Origin: Aliiroseovarius halocynthiae
GTDB taxonomy: Bacteria; Pseudomonadota; Alphaproteobacteria; Rhodobacterales; Rhodobacteraceae
DNA length: 64,000 bases
Direction: 5' to 3'
NCBI RefSeq assembly: GCF_007004645.1
Contig: NZ_ML660019.1
Span: 330,437-394,436, forward strand
A model generated the notes under the pieces. The model was not told the DNA's origin. It saw only the letters and a list, made by a program, of their open reading frames with translations, and ran no database searches. Positions 29,057 through 38,440 of this stretch are shown here, in pieces. The first letter of the stretch is position 1. Each line of letters starts with the position of its first letter. Made by a program: the position numbers and the translations under genes.

Positions 29057-30418
29057 CTACGTCGACACATTTTTCACCTTTGAGAGCACGAATGGAATTG
29101 CGATCAGGACAAACACAACCTGCGCCACAAAGATCATGGTGTAGGAAGTATAGAGTGGTATTTTTGCTAGCTCGGCCAGCTGAACGAAGACTTCAAATAA
29201 CTCCAATCCAACTTCCGTACCAATGATGATTACAAATGCAATAAAAAGGGAGAGCCCCGCACCCTGTGAGCTCGATTTGGACACTGCAAAAATGGCGGCC
29301 GTTGTTAGCAATCCGGTTCCAAATCCGGTGATGGCCTTGGAGCCAACATAAACTTCATAAATGGGGTAGCTAAAGTAGAGCATATATGACGCCAGGCCGA
29401 TTGCCGCAATTGCGGCACCCAAAACCATTAGTGCCCGCTGTAGTTGATACCGGGCCAGCAGTGCAGTTGCCCCCATCGCCGCGCAAACCTGTGCGAGGGC
29501 CGCGAGGGTGGCGCGATCAGCGATCAAGGTGTTGGAACACATATGCAACACTAGATAGGCGGTGTCATAAAACCCAGTAGTCGCAATATTAACCAAGAAT
29601 AAAAACACGAAGATTCCCATTGTCGCGCTGCCGGCAGTTCGTGCAGAGCCTTTGGCCTTTTGGCTATGGATCAGGTTGATGAGGGCTATCACGAACAGGA
29701 CCGCCATGCCCTGCGTCAGCGGCGATGAGATACCCAACATAGTGACGAGAAGGGTCATCACTTCAAAGGCGATCAAAGTCAAAATTGCAGGCACAAGCGC
29801 CATAATGGACGGTGCCGTCTGATCCGTGAAAGCAGCTTTCACCGGCTCGCGCACAATCCAGATTGCTGCGATCAATAAAAGCGGTGCGACCGCAAAGCCC
29901 GCAAAAAACACATCAAGCCCATAGCGTGGCGCAATCACGCGGACCAACTGTGGTGTCACTAGGAATGCCGCTGGCATTGCCACAGCCCATACGCCTGTCA
30001 AAAGCTTTGCATGTCTTTCGCCACCCCAACCTGTCAGTAGCTGCGCTACCGGGGCCATTGATGCCAGTGAGAACCCAATAAGCGGAAATAATAGCATCAC
30101 CAGCGCTTCCCGCGCCGCCACCGGCGGGCTCGTCCAGAACATGGCGGCAAGACCGAAGCCAGCACCACTCGCGATGAGGCACATCACTGTGGTCAGCATT
30201 TTAATGGAAAACCGCGCGAGCATCCATGGTGAGATCAGGAGCGACAGCAAGACAGCACCAAGCAGCAATTCGATGATTGCCGACGTCTGCGAAACGGAGA
30301 TTTTGAGAAAACTCGCAAACGTGCCCTCTGAGACGAACACTGTCGAACTGATTACCGAGCGCAGCCCGTTACCCAGCAAGACCAATGCCATCAAGAGTGG
30401 CAGAGTGACCTTATTCAT
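29057..30418 (-). CDS. MFS-like multispan membrane protein, last gene of the oxidase cluster
   Basis: A 453-residue protein with 12 to 14 hydrophobic helices separated by short loops, in the pattern of a major facilitator transporter. A first half with STVFVSEGTFASFLKISVSQ and a second half from about 240 can be seen. No substrate-specific motif was recognised. It overlaps the GMC large-subunit gene by 8 bases and is the most distal gene of a six-gene minus-strand run, so it probably imports the dehydrogenase substrate or exports a product or peptide; either is inference. Codon use is AT-richer than the priA region. Confidence 0.7.
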   Translation of the reverse strand: MNKVTLPLLMALVLLGNGLRSVISSTVFVSEGTFASFLKISVSQTSAIIELLLGAVLLSLLISPWMLARFSIKMLTTVMCLIASGAGFGLAAMFWTSPPVAAREALVMLLFPLIGFSLASMAPVAQLLTGWGGERHAKLLTGVWAVAMPAAFLVTPQLVRVIAPRYGLDVFFAGFAVAPLLLIAAIWIVREPVKAAFTDQTAPSIMALVPAILTLIAFEVMTLLVTMLGISSPLTQGMAVLFVIALINLIHSQKAKGSARTAGSATMGIFVFLFLVNIATTGFYDTAYLVLHMCSNTLIADRATLAALAQVCAAMGATALLARYQLQRALMVLGAAIAAIGLASYMLYFSYPIYEVYVGSKAITGFGTGLLTTAAIFAVSKSSSQGAGLSLFIAFVIIIGTEVGLELFEVFVQLAELAKIPLYTSYTMIFVAQVVFVLIAIPFVLSKVKNVST

Positions 30419-32027
30419 GTGCTGTGCTGACCAGATGTTCCGCTAGCCGGATCCCCATGGCGGCGATGGTTAGTGACGGTGCATTGACCGGCGCGCTGAC
30501 GTGGGTCGAGGCGCCGAGGATATAGAGGTTGCGATGCTGATGTGTTTGCAGATCAGCATTCACGACAGAGGTAGCGGGGTCTGTTCCCATACGCGTCGTT
30601 CCCGCGATAATGGCGTTGGACAGATAAGGTGTATCAGACTTGATGTCTTCTGCCCCCATCAATGTCAGAACCTTCTCATTTGTCTGCGTCGCGATTTCCA
30701 CACCGGCGCGTGTGTATTCATCGACGGTGAAAGCCACTCGCGGCTTTGGTACGCCCGCACTGTCCATCTGATCAGACAGAGTGATACGGTTATCTGCATC
30801 GCCGAGCGTTTCCGCGGATGAATTCAGGCGGACATGTCGTCCGATTTGGTCATTGAGCGCCTGAACCAAAGCCGCTCCGCGCATACCTTGGCTGATCAAC
30901 TCCTTGGATAGTTTGGTCGCATCGGCGTTTCCGCTCCAACCGTTGTTCATGAAGGACGTACCAAACGGAGCATAGTCTTTGCGAAAGTTTCCATCCCGAA
31001 ATTCAATAATACCCGATGTCTGTTGCGGCCCGCGATACGGATAAACCGGATCCGTGACTTCACCTGTGACATCGACGTTGTACTGCGACAGCAAGTAACG
31101 CCCAACTTGGTCGTTCTCATTGGCAACACCGTTGGGTGCGGTTTCTTGTCGAGAATTCAACAGTAGCCGCGGGTTTTCGACAGCGTGGCACCCCAACACA
31201 AATGTATTGCCGGTTACCTTCTGCGTGCTGCCATCGGGGCGCCTGATCGTCAGCGATACCACGTCTTGATCTGCACCGATTTCAACGAAGGTGACAAGGG
31301 CGTCCAACTCAATTCGTGCGCCCGCCGCCACCGCCTTGTCCATGTCGATGGATGCATCATATTTTGCGGCGATCGGACAGATCGGTACACAGGTGTTGTT
31401 GCCACAGCATGGCGGACGTCCGTCAAAGATCACCGAGTTTCGCGCGTGCGAGAAGCGTTTGGATGTCAGGTCCATCTGGTCCAACGCCTTTTGGATCTGA
31501 AGATCCATGTAGGAGGCTGGGATCGGTGGCATTGTATAGCCTTCGCCAGGTTTGCGTGGCGATCCCCAAGTGTAATCAGGGTCTCCAGACACACCCCAGC
31601 GCGCCTCGGCTTTCTCATAGAATGGGATCAGTTCGTCATAGCCTATCGGCCAATCAGTTCCGCGCCCGTAGAGCGTCGCGCCTTGAAAATCGGCAGGGCG
31701 CAGGCGATCAGCGAACCCGGTCCAGTGCCAAGTCGTGCCGCCGTAAATCCGCAAATAGGCACCAACAAACCTTTCCGGCCCGGCCTGGTCGTAAAAGCTG
31801 TCATAGTCGGTATCCGTTGGATGTGGGGCACTGTTTTGGCTGGGATAAGGGGCTTGCGGCCCTTTAACTGGATTCTGATAAAAGTCACTGAGGTATTCGG
31901 CACGTAATTTGCGGCCGCCCGCCTCAAGCACCAACACGTCGCGCCCGGCATCGGCCAAGCTGCGCGACAGATGCGCCCCGGCCATGCCGGACCCAACGAT
32001 AACGATATCTGCGTTAAGATCGGTCAT
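30411..32027 (-). CDS. GMC-family membrane-type dehydrogenase, FAD large subunit
   Basis: A 538-residue FAD enzyme. The Rossmann motif is VIVGSGMAGAHL (9-20). The cysteine-rich loop CCGNNTCVPICP (C207, C208, C213, C217) resembles the loop that binds a 3Fe-4S cluster in FAD glucose dehydrogenase large subunits. The C-terminal GASTHVSAPVNAPSLTIAAM supplies the catalytic His/Asn pair. These features fit the three-subunit sugar or alcohol dehydrogenase class (glucose, fructose, gluconate or sorbitol) facing the periplasm. The substrate is not predictable. It overlaps the small-subunit gene by 4 bases. The large subunit has no signal peptide and would travel with the Tat-exported small subunit. 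Confidence 0.86.
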   Translation of the reverse strand: MTDLNADIVIVGSGMAGAHLSRSLADAGRDVLVLEAGGRKLRAEYLSDFYQNPVKGPQAPYPSQNSAPHPTDTDYDSFYDQAGPERFVGAYLRIYGGTTWHWTGFADRLRPADFQGATLYGRGTDWPIGYDELIPFYEKAEARWGVSGDPDYTWGSPRKPGEGYTMPPIPASYMDLQIQKALDQMDLTSKRFSHARNSVIFDGRPPCCGNNTCVPICPIAAKYDASIDMDKAVAAGARIELDALVTFVEIGADQDVVSLTIRRPDGSTQKVTGNTFVLGCHAVENPRLLLNSRQETAPNGVANENDQVGRYLLSQYNVDVTGEVTDPVYPYRGPQQTSGIIEFRDGNFRKDYAPFGTSFMNNGWSGNADATKLSKELISQGMRGAALVQALNDQIGRHVRLNSSAETLGDADNRITLSDQMDSAGVPKPRVAFTVDEYTRAGVEIATQTNEKVLTLMGAEDIKSDTPYLSNAIIAGTTRMGTDPATSVVNADLQTHQHRNLYILGASTHVSAPVNAPSLTIAAMGIRLAEHLVSTAHE

Positions 32028-32497
32028 GCGGCCTCCCATGGGTGCAACCAGTACCCAAACTCTGGTCCTGCACATAGCCCAGGTGCTTTGGCAAATCGCA
32101 GAGATTTCCATGCTAACGCATAGGGATAGTTGATCATCCGCGCGTTACCTTCAGATGGATCAGCAGAGCCCGTAAACAGATAACTTGCAATCCATTGCAC
32201 CTGACTTTCAAACGGGTCTGGTTGCGGGTCAAGCACAGAGATAACGCCATTTCGGCCAAATCGGCTGACCAGGTCGCTAAGCGCAGAGAGGCCAAACTTG
32301 GCTTCGAAATCACGCGTTAGAGCAGTCAATAGTGGCGGTGATAGCTCTACCGGACCAGCTATAGCGTGCACCAGCGCATCCCAGATCGTATCATCATACA
32401 ACCCGGCAAGGCCTCCACCATGCGCTATACCTGACAGAGCCAACACACTACATGTGCCGCCGAGCACCGCTCTGCGAGAAAGATGTTTAGTGGTCAC
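32024..32497 (-). CDS. dehydrogenase small subunit with Tat signal
   Basis: A 157-residue protein. The N-terminus has a Tat-like motif SRRAVLGG (7-14) before a hydrophobic core. The rest (Q-rich ELSPPLLTALTRDFEAKFG, ending WLHPWEAA) resembles the small subunit of FAD sorbitol/fructose/glucose dehydrogenases, which acts as a chaperone and hitch-hiker export partner for the large subunit. It overlaps both neighbours by 4 bases. Confidence 0.75.
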   Translation of the reverse strand: MTTKHLSRRAVLGGTCSVLALSGIAHGGGLAGLYDDTIWDALVHAIAGPVELSPPLLTALTRDFEAKFGLSALSDLVSRFGRNGVISVLDPQPDPFESQVQWIASYLFTGSADPSEGNARMINYPYALAWKSLRFAKAPGLCAGPEFGYWLHPWEAA

Positions 32498-33189
32498 TGC
32501 AAACTCACTTCGACAAAACCACGCGATCTGTTTGATCCGGTGTCAATCAGCATCATCGCGTCGTGAAGTTTCTGTACTGTGATCCAAACCGGTGGGTATT
32601 TGTACTTCGCAACATCAAGGATCAGCACGCTATCGGTGTCCGCATCAAAAGCGCCTATGGGCGAGATGTGACCATCTCCCTTCTGTGGCAAAGCTTGGCG
32701 CGAATAGTTGACTATCAATCTTGCGTTGCGGTCAGATAGTGTCGCCTCAATCGCGCTGCGCAATTCATCCACAGAGGTTTCATCCGCAAAGTGGTGCTCT
32801 GCTGCCAGTCCGACGTTTTCAATGAACTGATCAAGCTCCTCCAAAGTCAGCCCTTCATGTTCAACCATGCCATAGGGCTTTAGCTCCTGGTTTGCAGCAT
32901 TGAACAAAAGGTCTTGGGTGAAAAGCGTCCAAGGATACAGCCGATCCGGAGACGGGCGATCGATGTTCAGCGAATTTGCGACCGCAGCAACCGAGGCGGG
33001 CCCGCAAAATGTGAGAACCTGTTCAGTTTCCAGATAGGTCGCGAGGCTGAAATAGTCGCGGTTCAGCCCTGTCTTCACTAGGCGATCTTCGCCTGCCTCA
33101 GTCGTCAGATAAAGCAGATCGTCTTGTGCGATTGCCATCGTGGCGGTGAGTGCAACGAAAGCTGTAGCAACTAGTTTGCGGCAAACCAT
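32494..33189 (-). CDS. phytochelatin-synthase-like enzyme with signal peptide
   Basis: A 231-residue papain-like transpeptidase or hydrolase. The catalytic set is intact: C62 (FCGPASVAAVAN), H174 (GHISPIGAF) and D192 (ILDVAKYKYPPVW). The spacings 112 and 18 match the established cyanobacterial triad (C70-H183-D201: 113 and 18). Residues 1-21 form a signal peptide ending AIAQ, so the enzyme should act outside the cytoplasm. Bacterial relatives mainly cleave glycine from glutathione to give gamma-glutamylcysteine; phytochelatin synthesis is weaker. It overlaps the cytochrome gene by 19 bases and the small-subunit gene by 4. Confidence 0.82.
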   Translation of the reverse strand: MVCRKLVATAFVALTATMAIAQDDLLYLTTEAGEDRLVKTGLNRDYFSLATYLETEQVLTFCGPASVAAVANSLNIDRPSPDRLYPWTLFTQDLLFNAANQELKPYGMVEHEGLTLEELDQFIENVGLAAEHHFADETSVDELRSAIEATLSDRNARLIVNYSRQALPQKGDGHISPIGAFDADTDSVLILDVAKYKYPPVWITVQKLHDAMMLIDTGSNRSRGFVEVSLQ

Positions 33190-33470
33190 TCGGCGATCTC
33201 CTTTATGTCTTCATCGGTCAGTTCTTTGGCATAGGTGCTCATCACATCGGCCGGCCCGCCCGTGCGCCGGCCGTCGCGGTATGATCGCAATGCAGCTTCG
33301 AGATAGGTCGCACGCTGACCCGACAAGATCGGGACCCCCGCAACCAGCGGGTTCCCATCCGCAGAATGACACGACACACAGTTTGTCGCCACCGTTGGGA
33401 TGCTGCTGTCTTGCGCCTGCGCTGCAATCGGCAACACCAGCAACGCTGCGCTAAGCTTCAATATTGACAT
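33171..33470 (-). CDS. small monohaem c-type cytochrome
   Basis: A 99-residue cytochrome of the c553 class. It has a signal peptide (about 1-20, ending AAQAQ), haem site CVSCH (31-35), probable axial M77 (DVMSTYAK) and C-terminal helix LTDEDIKEIAEWFA. It starts inside the multicopper oxidase gene (20-base overlap) and overlaps the phytochelatin-synthase-like gene at its end. It replaces the three-haem subunit that normally serves GMC dehydrogenases and may connect the dehydrogenase to the oxidase; that linkage is inferred from order only. Confidence 0.85.
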   Translation of the reverse strand: MSILKLSAALLVLPIAAQAQDSSIPTVATNCVSCHSADGNPLVAGVPILSGQRATYLEAALRSYRDGRRTGGPADVMSTYAKELTDEDIKEIAEWFAAN

Positions 33471-34992
33471 TCAGCATCATCCCCAGATCTTCGTGTGGCA
33501 AAATATGGCAGTGCATCACAAACCGCCCATCAAATTCGGTGAATCGCATCCGTACCGTTGCCGTACCAGCAGCTGGTACCGCGATTGTGTCCTGCCAATG
33601 CTTGTACGCCAACGCCTCACCGTTGATATGGGTCACCTGCATTGGATTCACATGCACATGGATTGGATGTGGAAAGGGTGTGGTGTTCACAAATTCCCAC
33701 TCCTCGGCCTCGCCTAGTTTTGCGACGATATCGTCACGTGACGGGTCAAAAGGTTCACCATTCAGCGTAAAGACCACGTCTTTATACATGCCGGGTGTTT
33801 CTTTCACACCAAGAACAATCTGGCGGTGGTTGGTAATCTCGGCATCAGTGATGTCGGTGAGGACCGCGTTTTTTGGCAACGGCCCTTCTGGAATGCGCGT
33901 TCCCTTTTTGACGTCAGACGCGATCCGATCCGTATCTGCGGGCAGAACGATCACCTGTGCCATATGTACCTCAGGCAGGTCAGTCTTGCCTTGCGTGAAT
34001 GCTGGGCGTAGCAGGTCATAAACGCCAACCTTAGGCGCCCTCACCATTAGGTTGGATCGATTGCCCGGTGCAATCTCAACTTTGTTGGTCAGCCGGGCAT
34101 GGTCGTAGGGGTTCCCGTCAAAGCCGATCTCATGAAGCTCCAGGCCATCCAGTGTCATAGGCAAGAATTGCTCATCGCCGGCGTTCAGCCAGCGCCAATG
34201 CTGTACCTCGCCTTCACGCATGTATATCTTGGGCTGGTATTCGCCATTCACGAGCCAAAACCGCTCGGAATCCAAGTTCCATATGGTGTCATAGCTGTCG
34301 ACCTCGCCACTTGAGGGATCAACTACGGGGCATTGAAAGACCATCACACGCTCAATCGCTTCGGCGACTGCGGGAACGTCATCGAGCGTACCGCGCACGA
34401 TCATCATGCCACCGCAACCAGACGCCACCTGAACGGCGACTGAACCGTGACGGTGCGGATGATACCAATAATTCCCGGCAGGGTGATCCTCTGGCAGCTG
34501 CACCAGATAGTTGAAGCTTTCACCAGGGTTTATCTGCAAATACACGTTGTCACTATTGCCCTTGGGGCTGACGTGGAACCCATGAAAATGTAGGTTTGTC
34601 GAGTTGAACTGGTTGGGTGTGTTCAGAACCGGGTCGCTATCAGGGTTTGATGGAAACCGGTTGTGCAGCGTAATCTCTATTTCGTCCCCGGGGGAAACAC
34701 GGAATGTCGGCGCTGGAATTTCGCCTTCGTAGAGGCGCAAAGACGCACTAGCATAGGGTAGATCATGACGCGCAATGACCATGTTCAACTCGGTGCGAAA
34801 CCGGCCACCAACAGACGTAATCTCACGCGGATTTTTAAGGTCACCCTCCATTCCAAGTGGCGACTGCGCTGGGATTTGGGCATCTAGCACGCCCGCTGCT
34901 TCAGCGCCTCGCGCAGAAAAGTAGTTGCCCAAGACGACTGTACCAGCCATCGCAGTGGTGCCCAAAATAGCTCTGCGGCGGCTGATTTGCAT
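33451..34992 (-). CDS. periplasmic multicopper oxidase
   Basis: A 513-residue oxidase. The N-terminal SRRRAIL before a hydrophobic stretch is a Tat signal, consistent with export of a folded copper enzyme. The copper motifs are complete: HFHGFHV, YWYHPHRHG, HPIHVHVNP and HCHILPHEDLGMM (494-506), the last giving type 1 ligands H500, C495 and M505 and type 3 H494/H496. It belongs to the laccase/CopA-like group; the substrate (metal, phenol or cytochrome) is unknown. ATG 34992 is preceded by AGAGG; an upstream in-frame extension to 35070 is rejected because it would bury the Tat motif. First gene of the cluster. Confidence 0.88.
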   Translation of the reverse strand: MQISRRRAILGTTAMAGTVVLGNYFSARGAEAAGVLDAQIPAQSPLGMEGDLKNPREITSVGGRFRTELNMVIARHDLPYASASLRLYEGEIPAPTFRVSPGDEIEITLHNRFPSNPDSDPVLNTPNQFNSTNLHFHGFHVSPKGNSDNVYLQINPGESFNYLVQLPEDHPAGNYWYHPHRHGSVAVQVASGCGGMMIVRGTLDDVPAVAEAIERVMVFQCPVVDPSSGEVDSYDTIWNLDSERFWLVNGEYQPKIYMREGEVQHWRWLNAGDEQFLPMTLDGLELHEIGFDGNPYDHARLTNKVEIAPGNRSNLMVRAPKVGVYDLLRPAFTQGKTDLPEVHMAQVIVLPADTDRIASDVKKGTRIPEGPLPKNAVLTDITDAEITNHRQIVLGVKETPGMYKDVVFTLNGEPFDPSRDDIVAKLGEAEEWEFVNTTPFPHPIHVHVNPMQVTHINGEALAYKHWQDTIAVPAAGTATVRMRFTEFDGRFVMHCHILPHEDLGMMLNVNIEA

Positions 34993-35573
34993 GTCGGAAC
35001 CTCTGCTGTGATTTGACGAACGATGACGTGAAAGCGGGTGTCTGTTCTGGTGGCAAATTGTCGCACTCATACGTAACTATCGTGCTTTGCTCTGTCTACA
35101 CTTTTTGGTTGCTCTTCGGTCGACCGAGTTGAAAGCTGGCAACGCGTCTAAACCCTCCAAAAGTCGGCTAAGGACAGATCCAAACGATGGATGCGAATAG
35201 AGCTGCAATCTGTCATTCAGCAAGAATGTTGCGGCTTAGCATACTTGAGTACAAAAATAGGAAAGACTTCTGCTGCGTGTCGCTCTGTCGATCCAAGAAC
35301 TGGAAAGAGCGGCTCACGAAACGAACAGAGACAGAGTCGGGCTTGTGACCGACATAGCCAGTCGCCAAGAGTTTCAACACCAATACGGCCATTCGTGCAT
35401 CACTCAGCCTTTGTCAAACTGGGCTCGAAGCTGATTTCAAAAAAGAGATTGCTCGGTCTCCAACTGAAGGATCTCGGGCTGTTCTACAAGAGTATCCGTA
35501 ATCATCACGCAGATTAAATACATCAATGCATAAGCCAAGCAGTGCCCAAGAAGCGAAGTGATATCGAGCACTC
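34993..35573. other. 581-base AT-richer spacer before the oxidase cluster
   Basis: Lies between the multicopper oxidase start and the SRPBCC gene end. Codon-like runs exist (a 57-codon open frame 35261-35434 without ATG, and a 108-codon frame at 35191-35517), but neither has a clear ribosome site or a family I recognise. It should hold the cluster promoter; no operator was identified. The base composition suggests old, eroded DNA. Confidence 0.5.
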
Positions 35574-36234: not shown

Positions 36235-37380
36235 ATGAAGTTTGACACGTCACGTTGGGCTGTTTTCCTCTGTATGGCTGTTTTCTTTGTGAAGCCGGTG
36301 CAGATTGGCATTTGGTTTTCACGCGTGGCCGAGGTCCAATATGTGCTTGGGCTTAGTAAGTCTCAGTTGGCTTTGTCGCTATTGGGGATGCCTATGGGGC
36401 TGCTGCCAACACTCTATTTCGCAGGGAAACTGGTGGATAAGATGGGTCCACGTCACGCGTTGTTGTGGTGCTTCCCGCCAATGCTTCTGGTCGGTGTGAC
36501 GCCTGGTCTGGCGGTTGGGCCGGTTAGCCTGTTTGCATCACTTTTTGTCCTCGGATCGGTGGTTGCTTTTGCCGAGATTGGAATCAATGTCTTCGCCGCA
36601 CGCGTCGAAAAAGCTTGCGGAAGATCGATCATGAATCGCGCACATGGGTTTTGGAGCCTTGGCGTCATGGTCGGCAGCTTGATCGGTGTGCAATTGGCCG
36701 CATTCGCATTTCCCGCATTCACGGCTCTGGCTATTGGCGGCGCGATTATGCTGCCTTTGCTAATGGTCGTAGCCTATGTGCTGCCTCATATTGAAGCGCC
36801 TGAACATCACGAAGCTGAAGAGCCTGCTGGTCGCCCGATTCCCGTTGCGCTTTATCTGATTGTTGTAACTGTGTTCGGAGCGACGCTTGTGGAAGGAGGG
36901 ATGATTGACTGGGCCGCAGTCTATATGCGCGAGGTTGCTCAGTTCACGTCCGGCCGCGAGGGACTGGCGGTGACAGTGTTCTCAGGCTTTGTGACTGTTG
37001 GGCGATTCGTTGGCGATGCCATCAATACGCGATTCGGGGCAGCGGTTCTGGCGCGAGGTTGTTTGAGTTCTGCGCTTTTGGGTGTCATTGTGTTGGCATC
37101 GAATTTCGGTCCCTATCCATCCTTTGTTGGCTTTGCGTTGGTTGGTTTAGGAGTTTCGACAATCTTCCCACTTGGTGTGACCGCCAGTGCGGCGCTCAGC
37201 AAACGGGCCGAGGCGCGCAATGTGTCGTTCATGACCTTCGGTGCACTAAGCGGCTTTCTGATTGGACCTCCGGCCATTGGGTTCATGGCACAGGCGACGT
37301 CATTGGATGTGGCGTTTCTGCTTCTTGTGCCGGGGCTGATCCTAAGCGTGACGCTTGCGCATCGCTTGGCTGTTAAGTAG
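36235..37380 (+). CDS. MFS transporter (YbjJ-like)
   Basis: A 381-residue major facilitator protein of about 12 helices, with FSRVAEVQYVLGLSKSQLALS in the early loop and the GKLVDKMGPRHAL motif A. ATG 36235 with AAAGGG upstream is preferred over 36148. It is convergent with the YeeE gene and overlaps its end by 8 bases. A LacI-like operator upstream hints at sugar-related control; the substrate is unknown. Confidence 0.82.
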   Translation: MKFDTSRWAVFLCMAVFFVKPVQIGIWFSRVAEVQYVLGLSKSQLALSLLGMPMGLLPTLYFAGKLVDKMGPRHALLWCFPPMLLVGVTPGLAVGPVSLFASLFVLGSVVAFAEIGINVFAARVEKACGRSIMNRAHGFWSLGVMVGSLIGVQLAAFAFPAFTALAIGGAIMLPLLMVVAYVLPHIEAPEHHEAEEPAGRPIPVALYLIVVTVFGATLVEGGMIDWAAVYMREVAQFTSGREGLAVTVFSGFVTVGRFVGDAINTRFGAAVLARGCLSSALLGVIVLASNFGPYPSFVGFALVGLGVSTIFPLGVTASAALSKRAEARNVSFMTFGALSGFLIGPPAIGFMAQATSLDVAFLLLVPGLILSVTLAHRLAVK

Positions 37381-38440
37381 CGGCGCCCACCAGGCCTGCG
37401 CGTTGATCCACCAAGGCATCCGTCACCATCGCGCCGATCCACATGCAGAGAAGCGCCAACCATGCGGTGCCGACAAAGATCGACCCGCCCGTGACGCCGG
37501 CACCAATCGCGCAACCTCCGGCCAGCATCGCGCCGAAGCCCATCAGGATGGCTCCGGTCATTGAGCGGCGCATATTGGCCTCGCCCTCGAACCCCTGGAA
37601 CTTGAATTCTCCGCTCAGCCAGCTGGCGACAAAGGCCCCAATGACAACGCCCGGAACTAGACCGACGTCGAATTCAAGCACCGGGTCCGAGACAAGGAAG
37701 AACATGAGCGTGTTCGCCGACGGGCCCGAGAAGGTAGCCGAGGTGACAGAGATCGGTTCGAACGCCGCGAGCGACAATTGATAGGTCAACACCCAGCCCA
37801 ACGCCACGGCGAACCCGACACCGGATCCAAAGATCAGACGGCGGGGGGCAAGTCCTGATTTGCGGGCAATCACGATGGCGAGCACGGCCGTCACCATCCC
37901 CAACGCAAGTCCTGCCCATTCCGGGGCACCAACAACTGTGAGCAGGTCTACGTTCGCGCCGCCCTCGGTCATCCACAGTCGAGCCAGCTTGTCGCGTGTC
38001 GGGGTCAGCCAGCCATGCAGGCTCATCTGTGCGACGACGGCGAAGATCAGGCCAGACACGACGGACCGCAAGTTGCCGGTCGCCGCGAGCACCAGAAGCC
38101 GCCCAGAGCAACCGCGCGCAAGCACCATCCCGACACCAAAAAGAAGCCCGCCAATGATAGCACCTGACCAGCTTCCGGTGACTGCCATCATACGTGCGTC
38201 TTCGGGGCGCATCAGGCCAAGCAGGGTGGCCCCTTGCACCCAGACGACGGCTGTCGAAAAGGTCAAAAGCCACACCGCGACCGAGCTGTCCATCTTGCGG
38301 CGGGCGAACTCGACCGTGGCGGCACGCAGGCAAAACCGGGACCGCTGGGCAGACACGCCGAACACGATGCCGGTGATTAGGCCGAACAGGGCGGCGGTCG
38401 GGTTTTCTCCGATCCGATCGATCAGGGGGACGATGTCCAT
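37373..38440 (-). CDS. YeeE/YedE family transporter (thiosulfate uptake-like)
   Basis: A 355-residue membrane protein with two internally repeated halves. Cysteine motifs are SRFCLRAA (C37), ARGCSGR and AGGCAIGAGVTGGS; in TsuA-type proteins such cysteines relay thiosulfate through the membrane. Eight or more helices are visible. A signature GGLLFGVGMVLARGC opens each half. Convergent with the upstream MFS gene and divergent from the next one. No rhodanese or sulfur-oxidation gene is in the window, so the substrate is a family-based suggestion. Confidence 0.85.
   Translation of the reverse strand: MDIVPLIDRIGENPTAALFGLITGIVFGVSAQRSRFCLRAATVEFARRKMDSSVAVWLLTFSTAVVWVQGATLLGLMRPEDARMMAVTGSWSGAIIGGLLFGVGMVLARGCSGRLLVLAATGNLRSVVSGLIFAVVAQMSLHGWLTPTRDKLARLWMTEGGANVDLLTVVGAPEWAGLALGMVTAVLAIVIARKSGLAPRRLIFGSGVGFAVALGWVLTYQLSLAAFEPISVTSATFSGPSANTLMFFLVSDPVLEFDVGLVPGVVIGAFVASWLSGEFKFQGFEGEANMRRSMTGAILMGFGAMLAGGCAIGAGVTGGSIFVGTAWLALLCMWIGAMVTDALVDQRAGLVGAAT

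Follow-up and report, generated by a model that had tools for sequence, protein, structure and literature searches.

Six overlapping genes in a window of 64,000 nucleotides from Aliiroseovarius halocynthiae (contig NZ_ML660019.1, positions 330,437 to 394,436; "the window" denotes this whole stretch) form a conserved unit. They encode a multicopper oxidase (MCO), a cytochrome c (CYT), an enzyme of the phytochelatin synthase family (PCS), the small subunit (GAM) and the flavoprotein (GMC) of a dehydrogenase, and a major-facilitator membrane protein (MFS). All six were found on one strand in the order MCO-CYT-PCS-GAM-GMC-MFS in 32 of the 44 loci compared, the window included, and because order and strand are the same in these loci the arrangement is not a matter of chance. 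The co-occurrence search suggested along with the original prediction thus found the six families together in one order rather than conserved separately. We tentatively propose, with a confidence somewhat short of even, that the module is a self-contained system that oxidises a thiol peptide or conjugate of the glutathione type in the periplasm, with electrons passing through the module to O2.

The comparison was based on a scan of one genome per species (84,980 species) with the PCS alignment and two short peptide patterns. At least 214 PCS relatives were confirmed, of which the best 80 were taken further, both figures being lower bounds. Profile searches found partner genes at 40 of these 80 loci, which together with the window and the loci L043, L044 and L053 (one of them a plasmid) make up the 44; the other 40 carry PCS without a partner chain and were kept out of this count. 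L045 and L048, duplicates of L086 and L091, were left out of the count; L096 and L097, whose PCS proteins are identical, were both counted. A PCS frame with a stop (L088/L046) was left out of the 44 loci and of the tree, and L053 was dropped from the structure alignments. Statements on neighbouring genes are weak for the GC-rich loci L092-L095 and L099, where the crude gene caller gave false open reading frames.

The complete set occurs in, among others, Yoonia, Nitratireductor, Alloyangia, Salipiger, Paracoccus, Rhizobium, Agrobacterium, Chelativorans, Thalassospira, Hoeflea, Kiloniella, Mameliella and Aquibaculum. Two loci have the order MCO-[CYT fused to PCS]-GAM-GMC, six have CYT-PCS-GAM-GMC only, and L094 has the latter four genes and a weak MFS match (23% identity, E = 5e-4). 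Three further loci are cut by contig ends: L072 (MCO-CYT-PCS-GAM-GMC), a Comamonadaceae bin that may be mis-binned, L075 (MCO-CYT-PCS) and L100 (CYT-PCS). GMC, the small subunit and the cytochrome are present in all 41 module loci that are not cut, and CYT-PCS-GAM-GMC is the part retained where MCO and MFS are absent.

All six parts named in the original prediction are present on the minus strand of the window, and their families were matched in Pfam, NCBIfam and PDB sequence searches (Table 1). The overlaps of 4-20 bases described there recur in the coordinates as 20, 19, 4, 4 and 8 bases from MCO to MFS. Inspection by eye likewise bore out the export signals, with twin-arginine (SRR) signals at the N-termini of MCO and the small subunit and ordinary signal peptides on CYT and PCS. 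GMC has no signal of its own by the same inspection, as expected if it is the passenger of a small subunit acting as a hitch-hiker of the twin-arginine translocation (Tat) pathway. The MCO open frame begins at an ATG at 35070, but translation more likely starts at 34992, with the Tat-like sequence MQISRRRAIL. The pair described as GMC dehydrogenase subunits stood as far as GMC itself is concerned; the small gene was refined to a Tat hitch-hiker subunit of the fructose/glucose dehydrogenase type.

Table 1. Genes of the six-gene module and the basis of their assignment (positions within the window).
Feature	Positions	Strand	Basis
MCO, Tat-exported three-domain multicopper oxidase (laccase-like)	33451..34992	-	Pfam, PDB sequence search
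CYT, Sec-exported mono-haem c-type cytochrome (c4/c554-like), one CxxCH	33171..33470	-	Pfam, PDB sequence search
PCS, Sec-exported phytochelatin-synthase-family enzyme, Cys62/His174/Asp192	32494..33189	-	Pfam, Nostoc Alr0975 match
GAM, Tat "hitch-hiker" small subunit, sugar-dehydrogenase type, GTG start, Cys142	32024..32497	-	predicted fold, relatives' Pfam
GMC flavoprotein, 3Fe-4S loop CCGNNTCVPIC, Ile475 at catalytic-His position	30411..32027	-	Pfam, PDB, alignment
MFS, major-facilitator membrane protein	29057..30418	-	weak Pfam match, predicted fold

Judged by sequence and predicted fold, GMC and the small subunit resemble the core of fructose and glucose dehydrogenases. GMC matched GMC_oxred_C (5e-16) and, in the PDB, the flavin adenine dinucleotide (FAD) glucose dehydrogenase of Burkholderia cepacia (6a2u, E = 7e-106), and the four cysteines of the 3Fe-4S loop occur in 41 of 42 cluster GMCs, the remaining one (L072) being cut by the contig end. 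The small subunit of the window had no Pfam match, and phmmer and profile searches of the PDB gave poor matches only, none of them a small subunit; FAD-SLDH (PF12318) was matched by 3 of its 23 relatives, and the Salipiger homologue is annotated as "sugar dehydrogenase complex small subunit". Its structure model (mean predicted local distance difference test score 75) had its two best fold matches, 8k6j_B and 8jej_B, in the small subunit of fructose dehydrogenase from Gluconobacter (probability 1.00, E = 7e-3 and 2.5e-2, template modelling scores 0.52-0.59). For this dehydrogenase class, published work describes an electron route from FAD to 3Fe-4S (PMC6719666) and a disulfide between alpha Cys213 and gamma Cys152 (PMC9727119). 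The module shares with the periplasmic Burkholderia (6a2u) and Gluconobacter (8jej/8k6j) complexes the GMC protein with the 3Fe-4S cysteine motif and the Tat hitch-hiker small subunit, in which a Cys close to the C-terminus is conserved (here Cys142, kept in 42 of 42 loci). In contrast to these complexes, it has no tri-haem membrane cytochrome and carries a soluble mono-haem cytochrome, PCS and MCO instead; in the neighbour survey no other cytochrome family recurs around the module. On a Methylobacterium plasmid (L138, 3601-6908) small subunit and GMC genes are followed by one for a ferritin-like-domain protein where the cytochrome would be. A Roseibium plasmid (L139, 1-7459) has aspartate kinase, nucleoside-diphosphate kinase, aminotransferase, small-subunit-like, GMC, GNAT and MFS genes in a row, which looks like a cluster for an amino-acid-derived product.

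The module core is recognisably fructose/glucose-dehydrogenase-like, with two class-defining features absent, the tri-haem cytochrome and the His/Asn catalytic pair. PMC6719666 gives His476 and Asn519 as the likely catalytic pair of the Burkholderia glucose dehydrogenase. In a gapless stretch of the alignment the His476 column holds Ile475 in the module GMC, and this Ile is accompanied by a new His511 and Asn517 in 41 of 42 cluster GMCs, L072 being cut (numbering of window protein P0002, which starts two residues before the Met). One column away from Asn519 stands a conserved Asn that may be its equivalent. The catalytic His is retained in 7 other relatives (Pantoea, Methylobacterium, Roseibium, Gluconobacter, L150, L151 and L152). 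Those without it, two Skermanella proteins (Val) and L149 (Ile), are the ones encoded next to an MCO gene. Because Ile in the module, or Val in the two Skermanella proteins, replaces His476, classical sugar oxidation by the module GMC appears doubtful. Roseomonas-type loci also have Ile at this position, though without an adjacent MCO; a link between MCO adjacency and loss of the His is suggestive, from few examples.

The cytochrome (99 aa) matched Cytochrom_C (2.5e-8), and its residues C31, C34, H35 and M77 are kept in 44 of 44 loci. PCS matched the Pfam family Phytochelatin (PF05023) with 1.3e-55 and 188 bits (cut-off 24.9) and Nostoc Alr0975 with E = 1e-38. Its Cys62, His174 and Asp192, which we take to be the Alr0975 triad, are likewise kept in all 44 loci, and since this triad is conserved PCS is probably a working enzyme. 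The family match and the Cys-His-Asp triad are common to Alr0975 and other bacterial half-length phytochelatin synthases, whereas the module PCS falls on a separate side of the tree and is part of a redox module by gene position or by fusion; among the loci examined, the cyanobacterial PCS genes and most of those from Mesorhizobium lack the partner genes. In L089 and L091 (Marinovum and Primorskyibacter), which form one group in the PCS tree (100/99), CYT and PCS are one fused protein of 329-332 aa. Therefore PCS appears to belong to the redox part of the module, and the fusion would place it physically at the electron-transfer end. Proximity of the two genes is no general rule, as a short protein with CxxCH and a hydrophobic N-terminus is encoded within 1.5 kb at only 2 of 45 non-module PCS loci (L109 and L122). 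In the first of these, a Tepidamorphus bin (229-1474), the genes for the short c-type cytochrome and for a PCS that falls outside the clade of the module are divergent. An apparent cytochrome remnant was seen by eye ahead of a lone PCS gene in Mesorhizobium (L066).

The MCO matched Cu-oxidase_2 (2e-24) and Cu-oxidase_3 (2e-17), and its copper-ligand motifs (ten His, the Cys and the axial Met), common to the Thermus thermophilus laccase and CueO-type oxidases, are complete in 36 of 36 loci. Related operons lacking PCS bear on its role. Two Skermanella plasmids (L135, 8355-12229; L136, 8328-12205) carry a small subunit-GMC-MCO operon alone. These three adjacent families are common to the module (35% identity for MCO and 39-40% for GMC) and the catalytic His is likewise lost, but cytochrome, PCS and MFS are missing and the operon lies in a glyoxylate-metabolism locus, adjoining gcl, hyi/otnI, glxR, pyruvate kinase and a tripartite tricarboxylate transporter. 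In L149 (6901-12185) a GMC that is 51% identical and has the same Ile/His/Asn signature stands beside MFS-like and MCO genes; no PCS match was found in the 18 kb covered, and the PCS frame with a stop (L046) lies on another contig of that genome. Since both the Skermanella operons and L149 pair the two, the MCO seems tied to this type of GMC, and the presence of small subunit, GMC and MCO alone in Skermanella supports the MCO as electron sink.

For the MFS protein of the window the MFS_1 match was weak (0.0056, below the cut-off), whereas 14 of 25 relatives matched at E<=0.001. A profile search of the PDB gave no match. The structure model has about 14 long helices, and its nearest folds are the 14-helix multidrug exporters EfpA, EmrB and QacA, which weakly hints at export of a precursor; the fold matches are generic, with 371 PDB chains at E<=0.001 that include uptake carriers. 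Neither the two fused loci nor those Roseomonas-type loci that extend far enough past GMC carry the gene; L096 and L097, where the contig stops 0.8-0.9 kb beyond GMC, are not among the latter.

The distribution of the module is patchy. Within the genus only the window's own genome, 1 of 21, has PCS, and 21 of 295 genomes of the family gave a PCS-like match. Partner genes within about 1.5 kb on each side of these family matches were found only in the window and in genome G099, which has five of the genes. One copy lies on a Salipiger plasmid. The PCS tree comprises 83 rows (midpoint root, with a long-branch warning; the cut loci L072 and L075 are labelled with the six-gene group of 34 rows). 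It splits 49 rows, including all 32 complete modules, from the 34 others at 100/98. Unrelated genera are mixed, with Nitratireductor among Rhodobacterales and Chelativorans together with a Rhodobacteraceae bin, and two chain-less Mesorhizobium PCS genes (L065 and L066) are close relatives of the module PCS. Over the 32 complete loci the six proteins show correlated pairwise distances (0.907-0.974), and for each of the 15 pairs 0 of 500 permutations were as high. This shows joint inheritance and is compatible with vertical descent; the pattern is most simply explained by horizontal movement of the whole block, and the module was probably transferred. Viral contigs gave 63 pattern matches, none of which was confirmed as a relative.

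Neighbouring genes were surveyed at 41 loci (40 module loci and L087) and named by Pfam (more than 9 proteins) or by eye, most being named by eye or left unnamed. Beyond the six genes and their fragments, 22 families occur in at least 3 loci. These are generic, such as LysR regulators (8 loci), branched-chain ABC transporters (8), SDR proteins (7) and TRAP permeases (5), or confined to the Kiloniella group, and the immediate flanks of the 44 loci vary from locus to locus. Five Kiloniella-type loci (L044, L079, L080, L083 and L084) have an ATC-hydrolase-type gene downstream of the module, and in L044, L079 and L084 it comes directly after MFS; in L044 (14017-14520), the only one of these loci run against Pfam, PF14196 was confirmed and the gene overlaps MFS. 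A Pantoea plasmid (pJZ29-01; L054, 4282-7512) carries a PCS-family gene between dsbB and ggt (gamma-glutamyltransferase), which possibly reflects breakdown of glutathione in the periplasm or a cluster for biosynthesis. Nearby are also genes of the ATP-grasp, amidinotransferase and MFS types. The Pantoea and Kiloniella arrangements both hint at sulfur peptides. The host genome encodes a glutathione synthetase and gave no match for a gamma-glutamyltransferase. A neighbour of the lone PCS gene of L065, taken by eye for a ZIP carrier, had no Pfam match.

No clear operator motif was seen outside the start region when the upstream DNA of five relatives was aligned. Large SAM-domain adenylate/guanylate cyclases with AAA and TPR domains occur near PCS in the fused-cytochrome group (L089, 4701-7997; L091, 4747-8028; L090, 4143-7493), assigned by Pfam for L089 and L090 and by similarity for L091; they are possibly a regulatory link. 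In the window, a membrane protein of a sulfur-transport family (PF04143, TsuA-like) is encoded near the module (37373-38440).

In the proposed mechanism GMC and the small Tat subunit would form a catalytic core like that of fructose/glucose dehydrogenase. Electrons would pass from FAD to the 3Fe-4S cluster, the soluble mono-haem cytochrome c, the laccase-like MCO and finally O2, or to another acceptor at loci without MCO. PCS, next to or on the cytochrome, would cleave the amide bond in a thiol peptide or S-conjugate of the glutathione type, whereupon GMC would oxidise the product or the thiol itself, and MFS would carry precursor or product across the membrane. The relay through cytochrome and MCO is suggested by the gene order, by the cytochrome-free Skermanella version and by the MCO-free versions that keep the cytochrome; the order dehydrogenase-cytochrome-MCO was part of the original prediction and gains support from the Skermanella operons. 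A glutathione-type substrate is a natural guess because of the dsbB-PCS-ggt arrangement in Pantoea, the glutathione synthesis of the host and the ATC-hydrolase-type gene. A thiolate would need less help from a base than an alcohol, which would fit the lost His of GMC. Gene context supports the electron relay; its route, the formation of a complex, a thiol as substrate and the direction in which MFS transports are inferred. Thiol processing is possible and the best reading of the module. A further-reaching version, which we hold possible with less confidence, sees here a new kind of periplasmic system with the PCS-type peptidase as a subunit of a flavocytochrome; the peptidase would release or bind a glutathione-derived thiol peptide, to be oxidised by the base-less GMC with cytochrome c and laccase leading to O2.

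Several observations weigh against thiol oxidation by such a module. The MCO is dispensable to the module and was not found in any of the 7 Roseomonas-type loci whose upstream side is covered (L092-L097 and L099). The closest characterised relatives of GMC oxidise sugars, and His511 and Asn517 could stand in for the lost base. Glutathione was chosen on account of the PCS family, and such enzymes may cut other amides. Furthermore, 39 tree rows come from chain-less PCS loci, of which 6 lie inside the module clade, and L094 is placed outside it, so that the history of the module was not a single clean gain. A GMC relative with 44-45% identity (L150) has as neighbours three genes with Pfam domains that match those of glycolate oxidase GlcD, GlcE and GlcF. 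The last observation, although L150 keeps the catalytic His, also speaks for a structural role of PCS, which would replace the missing haem domains in the electron-transfer subunit of an alcohol, sugar or hydroxy-acid dehydrogenase unrelated to glutathione. Both the CYT-PCS fusion and the glyoxylate-pathway genes and tricarboxylate-type transporter beside the Skermanella operon fit this explanation, but a scaffold would not need the Cys, His and Asp residues kept in every locus, and we regard it as rather unlikely. The module might also mature a secreted sulfur-containing small molecule, with MFS exporting a cytoplasmic precursor, PCS trimming a leader or amide, and GMC and MCO oxidising the product. 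The exporter-like model of MFS and the ATC-hydrolase-type gene agree with such a pathway, which we nevertheless consider unlikely, given that the fold matches extend to uptake carriers, that MFS is missing from some loci and that no peptide, polyketide or ribosomally synthesised and post-translationally modified peptide assembly enzyme was noticed among the recurrent neighbours, most of them named by eye.

PCS and MCO families have textbook roles in metal handling, and metal detoxification was among the functions originally proposed. PCS would then make or trim metal-binding gamma-glutamyl-cysteine peptides in the periplasm, MCO would oxidise Cu(I) and MFS would export the chelate, the dehydrogenase feeding in electrons or being accessory. 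Such a metal-defence island could account for the module MCO being the sole Cu-oxidase_2 protein of the host genome and for the ZnuA-type zinc-binding protein gene (1.5e-72) after the complete module of Thalassospira (L077, 14312-15409), a further point against thiol oxidation. However, the MCO reached only 106.4 bits with the curated CueO profile (cut-off 525) and 73.4 bits with the CopA profile (cut-off 478.95), is closer to the Thermus laccase and, unlike that laccase and CueO-type oxidases, sits in a dehydrogenase gene context. No metal regulator, copper ATPase or chaperone was noticed among the nameable neighbour families occurring in at least 3 of the 41 loci, nor as a recurrent gene in the direct flanks of the 44, most neighbours being named by eye or left unnamed. 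GMC, the small subunit and the cytochrome, all three present in every uncut module locus, would have no clear part in metal defence, and the MCO can be absent. The proposal is so far not supported, and we consider it improbable.

The original prediction knew of no described system combining these families, and none appears in the titles and abstract beginnings of the literature matches listed; the excerpt of a Pandoraea paper does not treat such a module either. We know of no other oxidoreductase-coupled phytochelatin synthase. If the proposal is true, this would be the first one, and the MCO would be a second terminal acceptor for this dehydrogenase class. Fructose and glucose dehydrogenases of the class are used in biosensors. 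The module suggests that their electron-acceptor part is replaceable by a soluble cytochrome plus a laccase, which would make a natural relay from dehydrogenase to O2. What chemistry a conserved GMC lineage performs when the catalytic His is gone is a testable question, and one clade of exported phytochelatin synthase homologues is now linked to a defined redox machinery amenable to expression and assay.

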